Of a stretch of 64,000 bases of DNA, positions 4,146 to 50,007 are shown one piece after another. Both the position numbers and the translations under genes were made by a program. The notes under the pieces are model-generated. The model worked only from the letters and a program-made list of their open reading frames with translations. It made no database searches and was not told the DNA's origin. The stretch comes from Dysgonomonas mossii DSM 22836. Lineage in GTDB: Bacteria > Bacteroidota > Bacteroidia > Bacteroidales > Dysgonomonadaceae. The stretch is taken from positions 206,614-270,613 of the forward strand of contig NZ_GL892006.1 in assembly GCF_000213575.1 (NCBI RefSeq), in the 5' to 3' direction. How positions within the stretch are numbered: the first letter of the stretch is position 1; each line of letters begins with the position of its first letter.

Positions 4146-5099
4146 ATGGCTTTTTTTTCAGGAAATAAACAAGCCGACGATCAAGATGAAACAGCTAAGA
4201 ATATTTTTCTGTTCGAACTCGTTCAGAGAAATATTCTTGTTACAGGATCTAACGGACAGTTGGGAAATGAGATAAGACGAATATCGGCTAATCATGAAAA
4301 CAACTTCCGTTTCTTCTTTACAGATGTAGCAGAGCTGGATATCACCGATCTTAGATCTGTAGATTTCTTTATAAAAGAAAATAATATAAAGTATATTATC
4401 AACTGTGCAGCTTATACAGCTGTAGATAAAGCAGAGGATGATGTAGATTTATGTTATAAAATCAATCGTGACGCTGTTGCCAATTTAGGGCAGGCAGCAA
4501 CAAACAACAAAGCTAAAGTTATACATATATCCACAGACTATGTGTATGATGGCACAGCAAACAAACCTTATGTTGAGACTGATACGGTAAATCCTCAGTC
4601 TGTATATGGTAAATCGAAGCAAGAAGGTGAAGCTGAATTATTGAAAGCTTGTGCTGATAGTATTATCTTACGAACTGCATGGTTGTATTCCATTTTTGGA
4701 AACAACTTTGTGAAGACAATGATAAAGCTTGGCAAAGAACGCGAAACACTAAACGTTGTAGCCGACCAGAGAGGAACACCTACCAATGGAACAGATCTGG
4801 CCAAAACAATTGTAAAAATACTTGATTTCAGTGAAGCCAACGGATTTAAACCCGGTATATACCATTACTCCAATGAGGGGGCTACTACCTGGTACGATTT
4901 CACATTAGCAATCCACAAAGAAGCGGGTATCAATACATGCAAGGTGAACCCTATAACGACCGAACAATATCCGGTAAAAGCCACAAGACCTAAATATAGT
5001 GTACTGGACAAAACCAAGATAAAATCTACATTCAACCTTACTATCCCTAAATGGGAAGAAAGTTTAAACAATTGCATCAAAGAATTGTTATCTATTTGA
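4146..5099 (+). CDS. rfbD: dTDP-4-dehydrorhamnose reductase (RfbD/RmlD) with N-terminal extension
   Basis: Short-chain-dehydrogenase-type reductase expected to make dTDP-L-rhamnose from dTDP-4-dehydrorhamnose for surface polysaccharide. The Rossmann motif NILVTGSNGQLG, where RmlD proteins usually start, begins only at residue 29. The catalytic YxxxK pair is Tyr154 and Lys158, and STDYVYDG is present. The preceding 28 residues (rich in D, Q, K and F) are unusual, and no in-frame ATG, GTG or TTG lies near residue 29, so the start at 4146 appears to be real. An eight-T run lies just after the start codon. No rfbA, rfbB or rfbC was seen nearby. The gene follows fabD by 15 nt. Confidence 0.88.
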   Translation: MAFFSGNKQADDQDETAKNIFLFELVQRNILVTGSNGQLGNEIRRISANHENNFRFFFTDVAELDITDLRSVDFFIKENNIKYIINCAAYTAVDKAEDDVDLCYKINRDAVANLGQAATNNKAKVIHISTDYVYDGTANKPYVETDTVNPQSVYGKSKQEGEAELLKACADSIILRTAWLYSIFGNNFVKTMIKLGKERETLNVVADQRGTPTNGTDLAKTIVKILDFSEANGFKPGIYHYSNEGATTWYDFTLAIHKEAGINTCKVNPITTEQYPVKATRPKYSVLDKTKIKSTFNLTIPKWEESLNNCIKELLSI

Positions 5100-5135
5100 A
5101 CTTATTTAATATACAATCACATTCTAGCTACTAAA

Positions 5136-5690
5136 ATGAAAAAGATTTATCTTTTCAGTTTTATATTTTTTGTCACAATCGTATCCTGTCAGAATAAACA
5201 GTCTGAAAACAAGCAAGCTCAGTTGGATACCTTAAATGTTGAGCTTTCAGAAACCCAGTTAAGCAATAAGGCCGATAGCATGGATTTGACGAATATCGCC
5301 CGACTGACCGAAAAAGAGTATACCGATCTGCAATTGTTCAACGTTAAAGGTTTAGAAGGTTACAGTGCCGAAGATTTATCGATGGGGCGCATTTTACTGG
5401 CGAATGATAATGGTAAAATATTGACCGTACTAGTGATAACAGATGGTGAAATAACCGAATATTTGTTAAGCTACGACAAAAGCGGAAACCTGCAAGATAA
5501 TCTACTTGTCGCTTACGAAGATATGGTAGAGTATTACAGCGAAGTATCAACAAAGATAAACAGTAAAGAGATTATTGTTCAGACTATAAATTTCACCTAT
5601 AGTGACAGCGATGATGACCAAGTGGAGAAATCAGATACTGCTTTTGTGAAATATCAAATCACTCCCGAGTTTAAATTTATAGCGAATTAG
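5136..5690 (+). CDS. Predicted lipoprotein of unknown function
   Basis: A 184-residue protein with a lipoprotein signal: a hydrophobic stretch (residues 3-16) ends in the lipobox IVSC, giving lipid-modified Cys18. A polar linker rich in Gln, Asn and Ser follows, then a globular region of about 120 residues that is acidic and contains no motif I recognise. It is probably anchored in the outer or inner membrane facing the periplasm. It lies 36 nt after the rfbD-like gene and could be the last gene of a fabD-rfbD-lipoprotein unit, since a clear terminator follows. I cannot assign a family. Confidence 0.75.
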   Translation: MKKIYLFSFIFFVTIVSCQNKQSENKQAQLDTLNVELSETQLSNKADSMDLTNIARLTEKEYTDLQLFNVKGLEGYSAEDLSMGRILLANDNGKILTVLVITDGEITEYLLSYDKSGNLQDNLLVAYEDMVEYYSEVSTKINSKEIIVQTINFTYSDSDDDQVEKSDTAFVKYQITPEFKFIAN

Positions 5691-5716
5691 CATTTCTTAT
5701 ATTAAAGAATAAAATC

Positions 5717-5755
5717 AACAGAGGTTTTCGTACAAAGAGAACCTCTGTTTTTTAT
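5717..5755 (+). terminator. Rho-independent terminator after the lipoprotein gene
   Basis: A 10-bp stem AACAGAGGTT with AACCTCTGTT, a 13-nt loop and a TTTTTATTT tail, 27 nt after the stop codon. Confidence 0.88.
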
Positions 5756-5870
5756 TTATAGGTAATCAATAATATTGTGCTCTGACGTTTGACTATCGAT
5801 ATCAGAACCTTGTATTTTCTAATTATTAAATTGTCTTATATTAAAGTTCTTTAGTATTATTGAATAAAGA

Positions 5871-5923
5871 AAAAGGTGACAACAAATAATATACTTAAAA
5901 GTGTTACTTTTGTTACTTTTTCC
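5871..5923 (+). promoter_or_regulatory. Repeated operator/promoter, copy 1 (AlkC-like gene)
   Basis: AAAAGGTGACA (5871-5881) is followed 20 nt later by TGTTACTTTTG (5902-5912) and immediately by a second GTTACTTTTT. The first unit is the inverted complement of the other two, giving one inverted and two direct half-sites TGTYACYTTTT. TACTTTTG at 5905-5912 also reads as a -7 box; no TTTG stands at the -33 position. The same arrangement occurs at 29915 and 30761. Confidence 0.65.
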
Positions 5924-5941
5924 GTTTAATTTGTTTTATAT

Positions 5942-6733
5942 ATGGAAGTTAAGAGAAAGGGAGTAAAATCCTTAAAAGATATACCGGCCGAAGTATTGCA
6001 ACAACTGAATCTAGGTACAATAGAGTCGGTTAATCTAACAGAGTGGTTGGCTGTTGACCAAAATGAGCTTTTGAAAAACGTTTTGCCTGAAAAATATGCG
6101 ACGGCTTGTTTATCAGAACTTGATGTGTTGGAAAAAGCGAGCACAATGCAAACAATACGCAGGATCGGAGAAACACTTTTGAGAGAAACGCTTCGAGAAA
6201 CAGATAAGAAGTTGTTCAAAGAACTTAAAAGTCACATATCCGATAATGTACGCTGTTGGGCTGCCTATATGATAGGCTTAGACAAGTCAATATCTTTTGC
6301 CGATAAACTGGAAGCAATCAAAGATTTTGCCGCCGATGGTAATTTTGGGGTAAGAGAGATTGCATGGATGGCCGTTCGTGAAGATATGGATCGCAATATA
6401 GAAAATGCTATACCGATATTATTAGCATGGACTAAAGACAAAGATCATAACATTCGCCGATTTGCATCAGAAGCAATACGCCCGAATGGAGTGTGGAGCA
6501 AGCATATCGATAAACTGAAGCAACAGCCCGAAATTGCTTTACCAATTTTAGAAGCACTAAAGTCGGACTCTGAAAAGTATGTACAGGATAGCGTAGCCAA
6601 CTGGTTGAATGACGCAAGTAAAACCCGTCCCGATTTTGTAATTGCTGTTACAAGCAAATGGGAAAATAATAATCCGACCAAGGAGACAAAATATATAATC
6701 AAGAAGGCACTTAGAACGATTAACAAGAAATAA
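5942..6733 (+). CDS. AlkC/AlkD-like HEAT-repeat DNA alkylation repair protein
   Basis: A 263-residue all-helical protein. From residue about 75 onward it shows HEAT-like helix pairs (VRCWAAYMIG, VREIAWMAVRED, NIRRFASEAIRPNGVW, VQDSVANWLND). The ARRxASE-RP-like segment and the motif order resemble COG4335-type AlkC relatives, which recognise or excise alkylated bases such as 3-methyladenine. Assignment is from memory of the family pattern; catalytic residues are not easily identified by eye, so a non-enzymatic HEAT scaffold is possible. It is the first gene of a likely two-gene unit, with the next start only 10 nt downstream. It sits behind the repeated operator described at 5871-5923. Confidence 0.7.
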   Translation: MEVKRKGVKSLKDIPAEVLQQLNLGTIESVNLTEWLAVDQNELLKNVLPEKYATACLSELDVLEKASTMQTIRRIGETLLRETLRETDKKLFKELKSHISDNVRCWAAYMIGLDKSISFADKLEAIKDFAADGNFGVREIAWMAVREDMDRNIENAIPILLAWTKDKDHNIRRFASEAIRPNGVWSKHIDKLKQQPEIALPILEALKSDSEKYVQDSVANWLNDASKTRPDFVIAVTSKWENNNPTKETKYIIKKALRTINKK

Positions 6734-6743
6734 GAGATTAAAA

Positions 6744-8588
6744 ATGAAAAGAACTACATATAATATAGTCATTATATTATTGTTTCTGAATATCCTTTCG
6801 CTAAGAGGGCAAGAGGCAATAGTTCCCGATTTGCAAAAATTGTATGAATATACAGACTCACACTTTGTTGATCTGAGAGCAAAACAGCAACCATTGATCG
6901 GAGTCTCTGCAAGCCGGACAAGCAACGGAGGATCGAGTGTGCCCGGAACATATATAGAAGCTATTCTCAAAGCCGGAGGACGCCCTCTTATCATTCCTGT
7001 GATGACAAAAGGAACAGTACTGAGAGATATCGTAAAGGATCTTGACGGATTAGTAATGACCGGCGGTGAAGATTTCAACCCGCTATACTACAAAGAGCAA
7101 GCTATCCCGGATATGAATGACATAGATTCTATCCGCGACATTTACGATTTGGTACTTTTAAAGTTGGCGACAGACCGCAACGTCCCTGTATTGGGAATAT
7201 GTAGAGGAGAACAGGCAATCAATGTTGCCTTTGGAGGAACACTCTATCAAGATATTCCCACACAGCATCAGAATAAAAGTGTAAAACATAGGCAAAGTGA
7301 GCCGAGGGAAATAGGAACACATAAAGTTTCTATTGCAAAAGATTCTCAGTTGAATAAGATACTTGGAGAAACAGAAGTATTTGTCAACAGCTTCCATCAT
7401 CAAGGTGTAAAAGATGTAGCTCCCGGATTCAAATTAGTAGCAACAGCAGAGGATGGCATCGTGGAAGCGATAGAAGCCTATCCGGATAGAAGAATAATAG
7501 GCGTACAATGGCATCCCGAAGGACATGTAGCCGGGGGAGATACTACGATGCTGAAATTCTTTAAATTCATAGTTTCTGAAGCCGAAACTTTCCGAAAAGC
7601 AAAAGAACTACATCAACATATATTTTCTATTGATACTCATTGCGACACTCCTTTAGAATTCAAAAAAGCAGGATTCGATATCGGAAAAAGAGAAAACAAT
7701 CAGGTGAATGTTTCTAAGATGGATGAAGGTATGCTAGATGCTATTTTCTTTGCAGCTTATACAGCTCAAGGAAAACGGGATAAGGTTTCATCACAGGCTG
7801 CCATCGACAAAATAGAAGGATTGATAAAGAGTATTCATTCACAGGTAGAAAAAAATAACGATATCTGTGAAATAGCTTATACGACAGATGATCTTGCTAG
7901 AATAAAAAACGGAGGCAAGAAAGCCATTTTCATAGGAATAGAAAATGGTTATGGAATAGGAAAAAATATTGAGAATATTGCCCGATTCAAGAAAATGGGA
8001 GTGAATTATATTACGCTTTGCCATACCAAAGACAATGATATATGTGATACATCGAGTGATACTACACGTGAATGGAACGGGTTAAGCCCCTTTGGGAAAG
8101 AGGTAATAAAAGAAATGAACAGACTAGGTGTCATTATTGACATATCACATGTGAGTGAAAAGACTTTTTGGGATGTCATCAAACTGTCTACTCAACCTAT
8201 TATCGCTTCTCATTCGTCAGTACAAACACTATGCTACCATGACCGAAACCTTACGGACAAGCAAATGCTGGCTTTAGCCAAGAACGGAGGTGTTGTGCAA
8301 ATATGCTTGGTCGATCTCTTTGTGAATAAAGACAGAAAGAAAGCATCCCTCACTGATGCTATAGAGCATATCAATTATGCCGTAAAGATTGCCGGAATAG
8401 ATCATGTAGGCATTGCTTCCGACTTCGATGGTGGTGGCGGGCTTATGGGTTGCAATGGCAGCAATGATATGATTAATATTACGATGAAGCTTTTAGAGAA
8501 AGGTTACTCGGATGAAGATATCGCTAAGATATGGGGAGGTAATGTCCTTAGGGTAATGAATGCTGTTCAAAAAGGAGCACAAAAGTAA
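6744..8588 (+). CDS. Fusion of class I amidotransferase (C26) and membrane dipeptidase (M19)
   Basis: A 614-residue exported protein with an N-terminal hydrophobic signal (residues 6-22). Residues about 48-275 form a class I glutamine-amidotransferase-like domain of the gamma-glutamyl hydrolase/PuuD type, with nucleophile Cys153 in LGICRGEQ and His257-Pro-Glu259. Residues about 285-605 form a peptidase M19 (renal dipeptidase) domain with predicted metal ligands His299 and Asp301 (DTHCD), Glu400, His469 and His490, plus Asp560. Both active sites look intact. This suggests one periplasmic protein that removes gamma-glutamyl groups and splits the resulting dipeptides, for example in peptidoglycan peptide or glutathione-type substrate turnover; that is inference. 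The start is 10 nt after the AlkC-like gene. Confidence 0.9.
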   Translation: MKRTTYNIVIILLFLNILSLRGQEAIVPDLQKLYEYTDSHFVDLRAKQQPLIGVSASRTSNGGSSVPGTYIEAILKAGGRPLIIPVMTKGTVLRDIVKDLDGLVMTGGEDFNPLYYKEQAIPDMNDIDSIRDIYDLVLLKLATDRNVPVLGICRGEQAINVAFGGTLYQDIPTQHQNKSVKHRQSEPREIGTHKVSIAKDSQLNKILGETEVFVNSFHHQGVKDVAPGFKLVATAEDGIVEAIEAYPDRRIIGVQWHPEGHVAGGDTTMLKFFKFIVSEAETFRKAKELHQHIFSIDTHCDTPLEFKKAGFDIGKRENNQVNVSKMDEGMLDAIFFAAYTAQGKRDKVSSQAAIDKIEGLIKSIHSQVEKNNDICEIAYTTDDLARIKNGGKKAIFIGIENGYGIGKNIENIARFKKMGVNYITLCHTKDNDICDTSSDTTREWNGLSPFGKEVIKEMNRLGVIIDISHVSEKTFWDVIKLSTQPIIASHSSVQTLCYHDRNLTDKQMLALAKNGGVVQICLVDLFVNKDRKKASLTDAIEHINYAVKIAGIDHVGIASDFDGGGGLMGCNGSNDMINITMKLLEKGYSDEDIAKIWGGNVLRVMNAVQKGAQK

Positions 8589-46878: not shown

Positions 46879-48612
46879 TTAATCATTATTTATCATTGTA
46901 AACAACTCTTCTGCGGCCAATTGAGGTCCATCCTTAGTATGTCCGTCAATAGCAAGCGAGGTGTATATCTCTCCGATTTTTACACCATTGTTATTCATAT
47001 CATTAAAGAACTCTTTGATCAGCTTACCGGCAAGCTCTTTTTCTTGTACAGGTCCAAAAGGGTTAGCAAAATAAGATGTCACCAAACCATTTTCGGTAGT
47101 AGTACCTTTTGCTTTGCGGGCTCCGGCTTCGAATATTTTAATCGCTTCGTCGAGATTATCAAAAAACTCAATCTTCTGAGCAGATTCAGTATAGTTATTC
47201 GCATACAAGATATAATCTACTTTATATCCTTTAGAGATAACATCGTATGTTGCAGCAGGAATCGTAATGCGAGCATTTATTTTGTCAGGATTAGAATATA
47301 TACCCCTCTCTAATTGCTGGAAGGCATACATAGGATCGAGGTCATCGATACGGACAAATGCTCCGATTTCGGTTCCATACCCCTTAATCGTACCATCTTC
47401 TTCTTTTTTGAGGTAACCCATATCATCAAATACGATACGCATATGACGTATATATTTCTCGTTAAGCGTACGGAAAGCTTCCAGACTTTCAGATTTTCCG
47501 GCACCACTATCTCCTATAATAACGATATTGGCTTCTGTTCCATTCTTGAGTAATATGTTTACCATAGCTCCATGCAGTGGCAATCGGCCTTGCTCCATTT
47601 GCTTCACGTTATGAAGTGTAAGAAGCATTTTTTTCATGTAGCCAAAATAGTCGATATCGTCGCAATGATTAGCGTAACCGATAAGAATATCATTTTTCTT
47701 ATCCTTATAATAGAAAGTACGTTTCTCTTCTATTCCATCAGGATATCCGAACACGTATATTATATCGGGTTTTTTACCGATATATTCCCCGGCTTTAGCC
47801 AATTCAAAAAGATTGGATAAGGCAAATCCGTGAACCATATAGTCCTTGTGGAAATAAACAAAGGTCAGCATATTCCCTACTTTAGCAGGAAATAAGAACC
47901 AGTCATCTTCATTCAGTATAATATTTTCTACCGGATTTGTTGTATGTTCTTGAAAAATGCCGTCGCGTGTATTTCTTTTTGTATACGAAATAAACGGAGG
48001 TTTAAACATAACAGAAGTAATGAACGGAATAGAAGTCAACCCATTGTATTCTATTGGGCAGTTCCAAGTAATGTCACTAAGAGTTAACCCTGCATTTGCA
48101 CCTGCGGTAAGCTGGCGATACACAAGATGCTGATACCCCATTACAGTTTCTTGAATGCGGCGGTAGATAGAAAGTACCAATTCATTGAACAACTCGTTGG
48201 CATGCAAAAAACGCACACTTTGCAACCCGCTGCTGATGGAATTGTTATGCACTATAGTATAACGCTCCATTCTGCGCCAAAAGCCATATAGAAGTTCTAT
48301 TAATTCTATAAATAAGTCTTTATCGTTAAAGAAGATAGCATACTTATTATGTACATTCTGCACCTCGTCGGGATTACATACTGTAAGTAGCTTAAATGCT
48401 TCTATCAATGTTTTTTGAAATTCTTCGTCAGTCTTGAATTCTTTGATATAATAATCGTAGATTATGACATCATTCTTTTTGAGTCTTTGTATAAAAGCTT
48501 CAACAACCCGATGAAAACCGTAACTATTTAATATTTTTTGCCTCGTGTCGCAAAACTTAAGAGTGAAGTTGATAATCGCCTTACCTTCGCCTAAAGTAAA
48601 CTCTTGTAACAT
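46879..48612 (-). CDS. PEPCK/HPr-kinase-like P-loop protein
   Basis: A 577-residue protein. The C-terminal half (from about residue 350) is a nucleotide-binding domain with Walker A GDSGAGKS (367-374), preceded by LHGAMVNILLKNGTEANIVII, and a Walker-B-like RIVFDDMGYL. This fits the P-loop fold shared by ATP-dependent PEP carboxykinase and HPr kinase. The N-terminal 340 residues are helical and have no motif I recognise. The protein may act as a kinase rather than as a gluconeogenic enzyme, since the classical PEPCK substrate residues are not visible. Adjacent ppc suggests a link to PEP metabolism, but that is inference. Confidence 0.7.
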   Translation of the reverse strand: MLQEFTLGEGKAIINFTLKFCDTRQKILNSYGFHRVVEAFIQRLKKNDVIIYDYYIKEFKTDEEFQKTLIEAFKLLTVCNPDEVQNVHNKYAIFFNDKDLFIELIELLYGFWRRMERYTIVHNNSISSGLQSVRFLHANELFNELVLSIYRRIQETVMGYQHLVYRQLTAGANAGLTLSDITWNCPIEYNGLTSIPFITSVMFKPPFISYTKRNTRDGIFQEHTTNPVENIILNEDDWFLFPAKVGNMLTFVYFHKDYMVHGFALSNLFELAKAGEYIGKKPDIIYVFGYPDGIEEKRTFYYKDKKNDILIGYANHCDDIDYFGYMKKMLLTLHNVKQMEQGRLPLHGAMVNILLKNGTEANIVIIGDSGAGKSESLEAFRTLNEKYIRHMRIVFDDMGYLKKEEDGTIKGYGTEIGAFVRIDDLDPMYAFQQLERGIYSNPDKINARITIPAATYDVISKGYKVDYILYANNYTESAQKIEFFDNLDEAIKIFEAGARKAKGTTTENGLVTSYFANPFGPVQEKELAGKLIKEFFNDMNNNGVKIGEIYTSLAIDGHTKDGPQLAAEELFTMINND

Positions 48613-48663
48613 GTTTAATTTTATTTATTATAGTTATTATTTTATCTGGTCCTATATCATTTA

Positions 48664-48696
48664 CAATCTCCTATCTCCATTTGTGACAGGAGATTG
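48664..48696 (-). other. Hairpin in the leader of the P-loop protein gene
   Basis: CAATCTCCT (48664-48672) pairs perfectly with AGGAGATTG (48688-48696). No T-run follows on the minus strand, so it is a leader hairpin or a weak terminator for the CWC gene upstream. A minus-strand TAAATTTG -7 box lies at 48749-48756. Confidence 0.35.
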
Positions 48697-48865
48697 CAAA
48701 CTTCAATACTTGATTTGAAAACATTCAAACTGCGTTGTTTTCCAACATCAAATTTAAGGAAACTTACCTATACAATTAAACGAATTAAAGACTAAATTTA
48801 TAATAAATTGTAAATTAAAAATAAGTTTTTGCTATTACCTTGTATTGGTGTTGCTTATAAATACT

Positions 48866-49081
48866 TTATTTTTTGTCTTTTATGAATTTGGGATTAACAT
48901 CGAAGGCAAAAAAGCAAGTATTTGTTTCACGTAAACACTTAGGACAAAGGCAATCACTATAGTTATCTTTTATATAATCACGTACTCCTGAGACTAAAGA
49001 AACTCTACGGCAGCTACACAATTCTACCCGGTCTTCTCTACAGCTGAAAGAAGCCGAACATCTTTGACATATCTTTTTCAT
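48866..49081 (-). CDS. Cysteine-rich CWC-type small protein under B12 riboswitch
   Basis: A 71-residue protein with eight cysteines, in the order CxxC, C (FSC), CSC, then CLCPKC. The pattern CQRC..F.C...CSC...L...CLCPKCL resembles the cysteine-rich CWC family, with CSC in place of CWC. Cysteine spacing suggests one or two metal sites. No signal peptide or membrane helix is present, so it should be cytoplasmic. The only regulatory element upstream is a cobalamin riboswitch pointing at it, about 200 nt away, which makes a role in cobalt or corrinoid handling plausible but unproven. No other B12 gene was seen in the window. Confidence 0.82.
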   Translation of the reverse strand: MKKICQRCSASFSCREDRVELCSCRRVSLVSGVRDYIKDNYSDCLCPKCLRETNTCFFAFDVNPKFIKDKK

Positions 49082-49283
49082 TGTTGTAAGTTTTTATTGT
49101 TATTGAATATATAATAAGATCAGGAGAAAGTTTATTTAAAATATACAACCTCATTTGCAGATACCAGAATATAGCATCGCAAGAGATGATAGTATAAATA
49201 CTTCAACCAAAATCAATTTTCTATAATCAGAGAAAAATCTCTTGAGCTTTCTATCCTTTTTCGCGAAGGATGAACTTATTTTT

Positions 49284-49460
49284 TTGGCAGGTCTTCTGAC
49301 TTACTTCCGTTTTATACGACCTTCCCGTTTATGAAAAACAGTGGCTTTGAGGATTTGTATAAACGTTTAGCGAAGCTTACAGCAGCGCGACTGTTCAGGA
49401 TTTACACCTGATTCCCTTTTCATTATATATCCAAGACTTCGAATATATAACACCAATTAT
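49284..49460 (-). promoter_or_regulatory. Cobalamin (B12) riboswitch
   Basis: Read on the minus strand, the conserved pieces appear in order: GGGAATCAGGTGTAAATCC with the paired CTGAAC, the CGCGCTGCTGTAAGC region, the AGCCACTG segment, GGGAAGGT, and the B12-box end GTAAGTCAGAAGACCTGCC (49284-49302). This is a full-length aptamer. A 12-18-nt hairpin (ATCCTT...AAGGAT, 49254-49273) and later AGAGA/TCTCT pieces may form the expression platform. It lies about 200 nt upstream of the CWC gene on the same strand. The rest of the 505-nt gap holds no gene that I can see. Confidence 0.93.
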
Positions 49461-49587
49461 GGTAACAAAGATATAGAATTATAAATAAGAACAAATATAA
49501 ATAGGAAAGTTTTTGATGGTATAATGAATTACTATTTCATAAGAGTGTGTTCTGCTAGGAATAAGTTTCGAACAATAATTTCTGCTT

Positions 49588-50007
49588 TTAATCTTCCAAA
49601 TCCCAATCATCAAAGAAGGAGTGATCCTCTGTAAACTGATCTAACTCCCGACGGTCTTTTTTTGTTGGCCGACCCGTTCCTCTAGCTCTATCGACAAAGC
49701 CGCTCACCTTAGATATTTCCAATATTTCAAGTTGAGATGGTGATGTCACATCTTTCATAAATTCGGGCACAAGCTTCGCTCCCATTCTGTTTTCGGAAAG
49801 ATTGAGAACTTCAAAGGAGTAAGTAACCGGTGGACGTCGCACTTCTATTACATCACCTATCTTAATAGATCGTGATGGTTTTATAGTAACTCCTTTGATA
49901 GAGATACGTCCTTTTTTACAGGCTTCTATTGCTATAGAGCGAGTTTTGAAAAGACGAACAGCCCACAGCCATTTATCTATGCGTACTTCGTTTTTAGGTT
50001 CTTTCAT
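49588..50007 (-). CDS. S4-domain RNA-binding protein (Hsp15-like)
   Basis: A 139-residue protein with an S4 RNA-binding domain at residues about 8-70 (VRIDKWLWAVRLFKTRSIAIEACKKGRISIKG..KPS). Members of this family (HslR/Hsp15, RqcP) bind 50S subunits that carry a stalled nascent chain. The C-terminus is charged (GTGRPTKKDRRELDQF), also typical of Hsp15. The next gene upstream is pth, another peptidyl-tRNA handling protein, so a ribosome-rescue theme is plausible. The gap to pth is 110 nt. Confidence 0.9.
   Translation of the reverse strand: MKEPKNEVRIDKWLWAVRLFKTRSIAIEACKKGRISIKGVTIKPSRSIKIGDVIEVRRPPVTYSFEVLNLSENRMGAKLVPEFMKDVTSPSQLEILEISKVSGFVDRARGTGRPTKKDRRELDQFTEDHSFFDDWDLED

Follow-up and report, generated by a model that had tools for sequence, protein, structure and literature searches.

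The window analysed here, a 64-kb stretch of DNA taken as a whole, carries on its minus strand a cobalamin riboswitch aptamer (RF00174; 49269..49472), followed 187 nt downstream by the gene for a 71-residue Cys_rich_CWC protein (PF14375; 48866..49081) and then by the gene for a 577-residue P-loop protein (46879..48612). The first-pass annotation had proposed a complete B12 aptamer on this strand and a covariance-model search for it, and that search matched RF00174 over the full model (positions 1-189) at 102.7 bits (gathering score 31.5; E = 1.4e-24). The aptamer was thus present as described, but it extends slightly beyond the span of 49284-49460 first assigned to it. It was also the only match above an Rfam gathering score within the 64-kb window.

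The CWC protein was identified from its open reading frame and from a profile match to PF14375 of 37.3 bits (cut-off 24). Its length had been given correctly at the outset, while its cysteines had been counted as eight; there are nine, of which C5, C8, C14, C22, C24, C44, C46 and C49 form the family pattern and C56 is extra. The eight-cysteine pattern was invariant in 14 aligned relatives, and also in an alignment of 79 sequences, which is not independent since its rows were chosen by that pattern. The window protein therefore scores above the family cut-off with the eight family cysteines, but differs from the family as named in belonging to a CxRC group in which CSC or CQC replaces CWC. The literal C-W-C motif is absent from the window protein, which has C22-S23-C24, and Q was nearly invariant at the place of the W in the 79-sequence alignment. 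No signal peptide was seen by eye, and we therefore take the protein to be cytosolic. An AF2 model showed a beta-hairpin and two helices at moderate confidence (pLDDT 72.8). Comparison of this model with PDB folds gave nothing below an E value of 1 (best 1.4), and a PDB sequence search with the CWC query A2 found no solved relative (best E 0.49). To judge by the cysteines, the eight thiolates probably hold a metal, which could be zinc, iron or cobalt.

We then examined the elements around the aptamer. The Bacteroidetes -7 promoter element has the consensus TAnnTTTG, and the minus-strand sequence TATCTTTG at the 5' edge of the riboswitch (49466..49473), read directly from the DNA, fits what we take to be this consensus; TTTG occupied the same place in 13 of the 14 rows of riboswitch alignment A3. 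A predicted P13-like hairpin lies just 3' of the aptamer (49253..49271, minus strand), and its loop, CGCGAAA, is complementary to the L5 stretch UCGCG of the aptamer (49386..49390, minus strand). Following the L5/L13 scheme of PMC10653944, we read these as the two halves of a kissing loop, in which UCGCG can pair with CGCGA of the hairpin loop, given the predicted fold. The same paper describes this L5-L13 kissing loop as the switch of the cobalamin riboswitch class (PMC10653944). The loop CGCG(A/G)AAA was common to all 11 aligned CWC leaders. A script applied to 24 riboswitches found the pairs CGCG/CGCG, CCCG/CGGG and CCTG/CAGG in many rows; eight rows had no match, two more were doubtful, and in some of these a different hairpin was picked. 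On the window riboswitch the script picked another hairpin and found no pairing there. A simple scan of the minus strand from 48550 to 49600 showed no intrinsic terminator, and the region 49070-49300 taken whole folded no better than its shuffles (z -0.73).

The 577-residue protein is weakly similar to PEP carboxykinase and HPr kinase, by profile matches below the family cut-offs, and its best PDB match had an E value of 0.05. Its gene starts 253 nt after the CWC stop codon on the same strand. The earlier statement that no other gene lies within 250 nt is therefore literally true, but it does not show that the CWC transcript carries a single gene. The same order, CWC followed by the 577-residue gene, was found in 13 loci, and relatives of the 577-residue protein occur in all 25 genomes of the genus, with at least two matches in 23. 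In the window's genome a paralog lies behind a riboswitch-ThrE-ThrE2 row (L191:6635-10089), in G017 (L184) a paralog directly follows a riboswitch with no CWC gene, and coordinates place another behind a riboswitch on contig 40 of G023. In G010 (L090) the row is riboswitch, permease gene, CWC gene and 577-residue gene, the last two being separated by 22 nt. From the riboswitch-led paralogs and the row in G010 it follows that the 577-residue gene may well be a second B12-responsive product, and it is possibly co-transcribed with CWC in one B12-controlled unit. The first reading of CWC as the sole target of the riboswitch thus holds only in part, because a conserved gene follows whose paralogs are led by riboswitches without CWC.

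These observations raise the alternative that the riboswitch serves the 577-residue gene and that CWC is a passenger between the two. This would account for the three riboswitch-led paralogs that have no CWC gene (L191, L184 and contig 40 of G023), and also for L188 in G011, where the riboswitch and the 577-residue gene are kept and a short open reading frame, perhaps a CWC remnant, stands in the place of CWC; G011 has two CWC genes elsewhere. Against it, six genomes of the genus lack both CWC and the riboswitch at the 577-residue ortholog: no riboswitch precedes this gene in G012, G016, G024, G007, G022 or G008, among which a pth or S4 flank is kept only at L181, L183 and L186. This comparison left out G001 and G004, where the loci ran off the contigs, and G014, where the locus lies near a contig end. 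Outside the order, moreover, CWC genes are linked to riboswitches where there is no 577-residue gene at all. We therefore regard the passenger explanation as quite unlikely.

We next considered the distribution of CWC in the genus and its relatives. CWC is single-copy in the window's genome; counting this genome, 16 of the 61 genomes in the relatives set and 13 of the 25 in the genus carry it. Among 20 further CWC loci (L010-L029), 13 had a full RF00174 match upstream on the same strand, and a fourteenth match, at L028, was cut off and lay downstream of CWC. The gene row comprising an S4 gene, the riboswitch, CWC, the 577-residue gene and PEP carboxylase repeats across the genus. CWC was absent from 12 of the 25 genus genomes, several of which are incomplete, and all 12 still carry cobalamin riboswitches, which argues that CWC is not required for B12 use as such. 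Genus genomes with CWC had more riboswitches (p 0.004, with one subtracted for CWC) and more often carried cbiC (10 of 13, vs 3 of 12 without CWC; p 0.017), both comparisons being open to bias from incomplete genomes. Among 18 near-complete genus genomes the co-occurrence of cbiC and CWC was not significant (8 of 11 vs 2 of 7; p 0.14).

In a survey of the phylum, CWC was found in 113 of 395 genomes, in 106 of them above the cut-off. Thirty CWC loci were taken from this survey, and at the 20 of these that were scanned no cobalamin riboswitch lay within 1.5 kb. We built a riboswitch model (R1) from 14 riboswitches and scanned wider stretches around 119 CWC loci, in two sets of 39 and 80 that gave 30 and 54 matches, respectively. 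The 80 loci were the top-ranking 80 among 233 matches to a query made from ten CWC proteins outside the genus, and are not a fair sample of PF14375, because the query came from one subfamily. An upstream riboswitch on the same strand was found in 77 of the 116 loci with a mapped CWC reading frame, a set that does not include the window's own locus; four pairs among the 116 are the same contig, so that the count is about 74 of 112 without duplicates. In 75 of the 77, no opposing reading frame of at least 120 residues lies between riboswitch and CWC. When the CWC proteins were grouped at 65% identity, the link was seen in 31 of 54 groups.

Could a riboswitch and an unrelated small gene have come to lie side by side by chance? 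The density of cobalamin riboswitches in the window's genome (eight in 3.95 Mb) predicts about one within 8 kb of CWC in 116 loci, whereas 77 loci were linked, and the 84 riboswitch matches were divided 80:2:2 between upstream on the same strand, downstream on the same strand and the opposite strand. Chance adjacency is hence rejected, and we give it almost no credence. The question raised by the first-pass annotation, namely whether riboswitch-CWC pairs recur in other genomes, can be answered in the affirmative from these loci, which include a few in Gammaproteobacteria. No riboswitch match was found at the remaining 39 of the 116 loci, 29 of which had at least 4 kb of upstream sequence available; ten of the 39 have a neighbour of MetE, Nrd, Cob or Btu type, including four metE-CWC loci of Larkinella.

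In a tree of 140 distinct CWC proteins, every row labelled as linked fell among 112 rows that form a single group (support 97/93), and all 28 rows outside it were labelled as having none; the tree was built from few columns, 50 of its 137 inner branches are open, and class-sample labels were set to none except for L260. Outside the group lie proteins of the CPLCG...CWC type and three loci of family f43, which we take for green sulphur bacteria; L258, also outside, has a BtuF-like neighbour by BLAST. In a 16-row clade with the CPLCG...CWC type no riboswitch was found near CWC in the scanned stretches. The CxRC-type subfamily mostly reads CPRC..FEC outside Bacteroides. One linked locus, L099, belongs to Thermochlorobacter (Chlorobiota). 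Given the starred branches of the tree, the MetE label must have changed at least eight times and the uptake label at least four times.

Around the gammaproteobacterium G456, CWC was found in 33 of 274 genomes (G456 included) at 35 places, and stretches were taken from 33 of these, all but L147 (the place in G456 itself) and the second of the places in G458. Scanning with R1 and Rfam revealed a riboswitch near CWC only in L260, from the genome of L100, and the link is therefore rare in Gammaproteobacteria; in L248 a riboswitch lies about 7.6 kb from CWC. For the direct gammaproteobacterial cases the Rfam matches were marginal: 32.6 bits in L126 (gathering 31.5) and 50.9 bits to RF01482 in L176 (gathering 50), with no Rfam match for the riboswitch of L147. 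The gammaproteobacterial locus L100, which has metE, gave clear Rfam matches of 106.8 and 47.1 bits. Since the riboswitch pairing recurs and the operons are B12-related, this CWC subfamily appears to belong to the cobalamin regulon. As judged from sequence, the CxRC-type subfamily is a recurrent member of cobalamin-riboswitch regulons in Bacteroidota, in Thermochlorobacter and in a few Gammaproteobacteria, and CWC itself is almost certainly a genuine member of the B12 regulon. Its companions across these operons are genes for B12 uptake, for corrinoid nucleotide-loop assembly and for B12-independent isozymes.

The operons of the 77 linked loci were counted by hand, with L064 set right by eye. 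Seventeen had CWC directly behind the riboswitch (14 in the window's order, and L126, L147 and L176 in Gammaproteobacteria), 16 had the row riboswitch-metE-CWC, 38 were of an uptake type, in which TonB receptor genes or btuG- or btuF-like genes separate CWC from the riboswitch, and six were of other kinds. In 15 of the 38 uptake-type loci, cobU, a Dph6-like gene and cobT come next or nearly so. We also clustered all reading frames within five genes of CWC, families not being chosen beforehand; cluster representatives were labelled by profile search, the permease and MarC by eye and other members by similarity. The clusters comprised TonB receptors (42 loci), an amino-acid permease (27), MetE (22), a Dph6-like ATPase (21), MarC (19), a CobC-like phosphatase (17), CobT (16), DUF6580 (16), CobU (15), CobS (14), NrdA (5) and NrdB (4). 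We infer that the TonB receptors beside CWC are BtuB.

Other genes recur in these operons. Of 21 loci with a gene for a Dph6-like ATP pyrophosphatase, 15 have it between cobU and cobT, for example L061, L113, L116, L137 and L150; the Dph6-like proteins and the DUF6580 membrane proteins (16 loci) are two more uncharacterised members of B12 operons. A gene for a 4HBT-type thioesterase lies 3' of CWC in nine loci, in six of them behind metE (L075, L121, L149, L152, L168 and L174). In L078 (G407; 4337-8421) a riboswitch, CWC, a biotin carboxylase gene and a carboxyltransferase gene form one row. One paper reports bt1915 measured as the first gene after a riboswitch (PMC8941943) and another describes BT1915-17 as a biotin-dependent carboxylase locus (PMC8865466); on these accounts L078 resembles BT1915-17 in having biotin-dependent carboxylase genes behind a riboswitch.

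Operon partners are thus very variable, which fits a possible role of CWC as a small adaptor or regulator, binding an enzyme or an RNA when B12 is scarce, in which its metal sites would be structural only. The small size of the protein and the beta-hairpin and two helices of its model agree with such a role. No partner is constant across the contexts, however, and no fold match suggests an adaptor, and we consider this role rather unlikely.

Class I ribonucleotide reductase, QueH and MetE replace B12 enzymes, and all three hold metal. CWC might therefore deliver or buffer metal (zinc or iron) for these B12-independent isozymes and be induced as they take over. MetE stands directly upstream of CWC on the same strand in 20 loci, with gaps of 8-327 nt, or in 19 when L066 and L099, which are one contig, are counted once. 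In L067 and L071 the row is nrdB-nrdA-CWC, with no riboswitch match. In L080 (G011:C5, 886-10655), a locus of the window's genus, two riboswitches are followed by genes for the large and small subunits of class I ribonucleotide reductase, then by queH and CWC; further on come an opposite-strand Lrp-type gene, a 378-residue MetE-like gene, a third riboswitch and metE. These loci speak for metal supply to the isozymes, but within the genus MetE was found in only two and QueH in one of the 25 genomes, as against 13 with CWC, and the window's genome has neither. CWC is therefore not merely a helper of MetE or QueH in the genus; these counts weaken help to MetE as its sole function and speak against help to QueH. 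Many CWC genes, moreover, lie beside TonB receptor, btuF-like and cobU-T-S genes with no isozyme. We view metal supply to isozymes as improbable, to about the same degree as the adaptor role.

The other seven cobalamin riboswitches of the window's genome precede a TonB receptor-DUF5074 pair, nrdD, a gene for a PFL-like enzyme together with a radical-SAM gene, the ThrE-ThrE2-577 row, two TonB receptor-cbiK units and a unit of TP_methylase and btuF-like genes. The switches before nrdD and before the PFL-like glycyl-radical enzyme gene with its radical-SAM (activase-like) gene lie on the minus strand of L191:229-6476 (G000:C1); a PFL-like glycyl-radical enzyme was unfamiliar to us as a riboswitch target. 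The window switch shares its aptamer family, and presumably its repressing logic, with the regulons under cobalamin riboswitches in Bacteroides, the btu operons among them, but differs from them in having an uncharacterised CWC protein as its target. The switch itself is thus of a known kind, and the new part is the place of the CWC family in the B12 regulon.

The literature was searched outside supplements and most subscription journals, and there neither PF14375 nor other spellings of Cys_rich_CWC gave a match. CWC was not named in the portions seen of the main texts, without supplements, of PMC12751083, PMC8941943 and PMC6143338, and the phrase 'CWC family protein' joined with cobalamin terms was absent among the matches listed. 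The phrase 'cysteine-rich CWC' occurred only in a paper on Sulfurospirillum, which belongs to another phylum. According to this paper the cysteine-rich CWC protein SMUL_1567 lies between cbiA and sirC in a corrinoid gene region; it is listed together with further corrinoid genes that are induced, and its value of 3.5 we take as a log2 fold change (PMC7755780). The likeness to the window is that a corrinoid gene region contains a CWC protein; SMUL_1567 is listed under tetrachloroethene respiration, however, and not as a riboswitch target, and it is likened to our protein by description alone (PMC7755780). A place for CWC in the cobalamin regulon hence looks unreported in the literature searched, a scope that leaves aside regulon tables in supplements such as that of PMC3766115, a paper seen in part.

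Taken together, the best explanation of the whole is that the CWC locus is B12-controlled and that the CWC protein helps the cell to use scarce corrinoid, which we hold to be somewhat probable. With adenosylcobalamin or a related corrinoid in good supply, the aptamer would engage the P13 hairpin through the L5-L13 kissing loop and expression would fall, repression being the usual sign of this riboswitch class. Under B12 scarcity the CWC protein would be made, and perhaps the 577-residue protein as well. The small cytosolic CWC protein might then act, for example, in the thiol-based removal of the upper ligand of a corrinoid; it could alternatively reduce incoming corrinoid before adenosylation, or transfer metal or corrinoid.

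The particular function is less certain than this outline. A role in cobalt or corrinoid handling, not described to its author's knowledge, had been suggested from the sequence of the locus, and a role in corrinoid economy, none having been found described, is a fair reading, since the pairing recurs and operons for corrinoid uptake and salvage elsewhere contain CWC. The occurrence of CWC in operons of B12-independent isozymes means that a more general function in B12 scarcity competes with corrinoid handling. We nevertheless favour corrinoid handling as the particular function, tentatively and at less than even confidence, over metal supply to isozymes or an adaptor role, because MetE and QueH are scarce in the genus and because of the Sulfurospirillum case. 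More tentatively still, CxRC-type CWC might be an unrecognised and widespread corrinoid-handling factor, a very small thiolate or metal protein of the cytoplasm whose task would be to strip, reduce or pass on corrinoid (or cobalt) when it is scarce, and that has been taken repeatedly into riboswitch-controlled operons for B12 uptake, corrinoid assembly and B12 replacement.

To our knowledge, the fate of corrinoids in the cytoplasm of B12-scavenging bacteria, from import to adenosylation, is not fully known. A small protein family such as CWC, found with the B12 regulon across operons of different kinds, would offer a genetic handle on a cytoplasmic corrinoid step. Recurrence of the kind seen here can place riboswitch targets that are annotated as hypothetical, and the link between CWC and the riboswitch suggests that part of the bacterial response to B12 scarcity has gone unnoticed.
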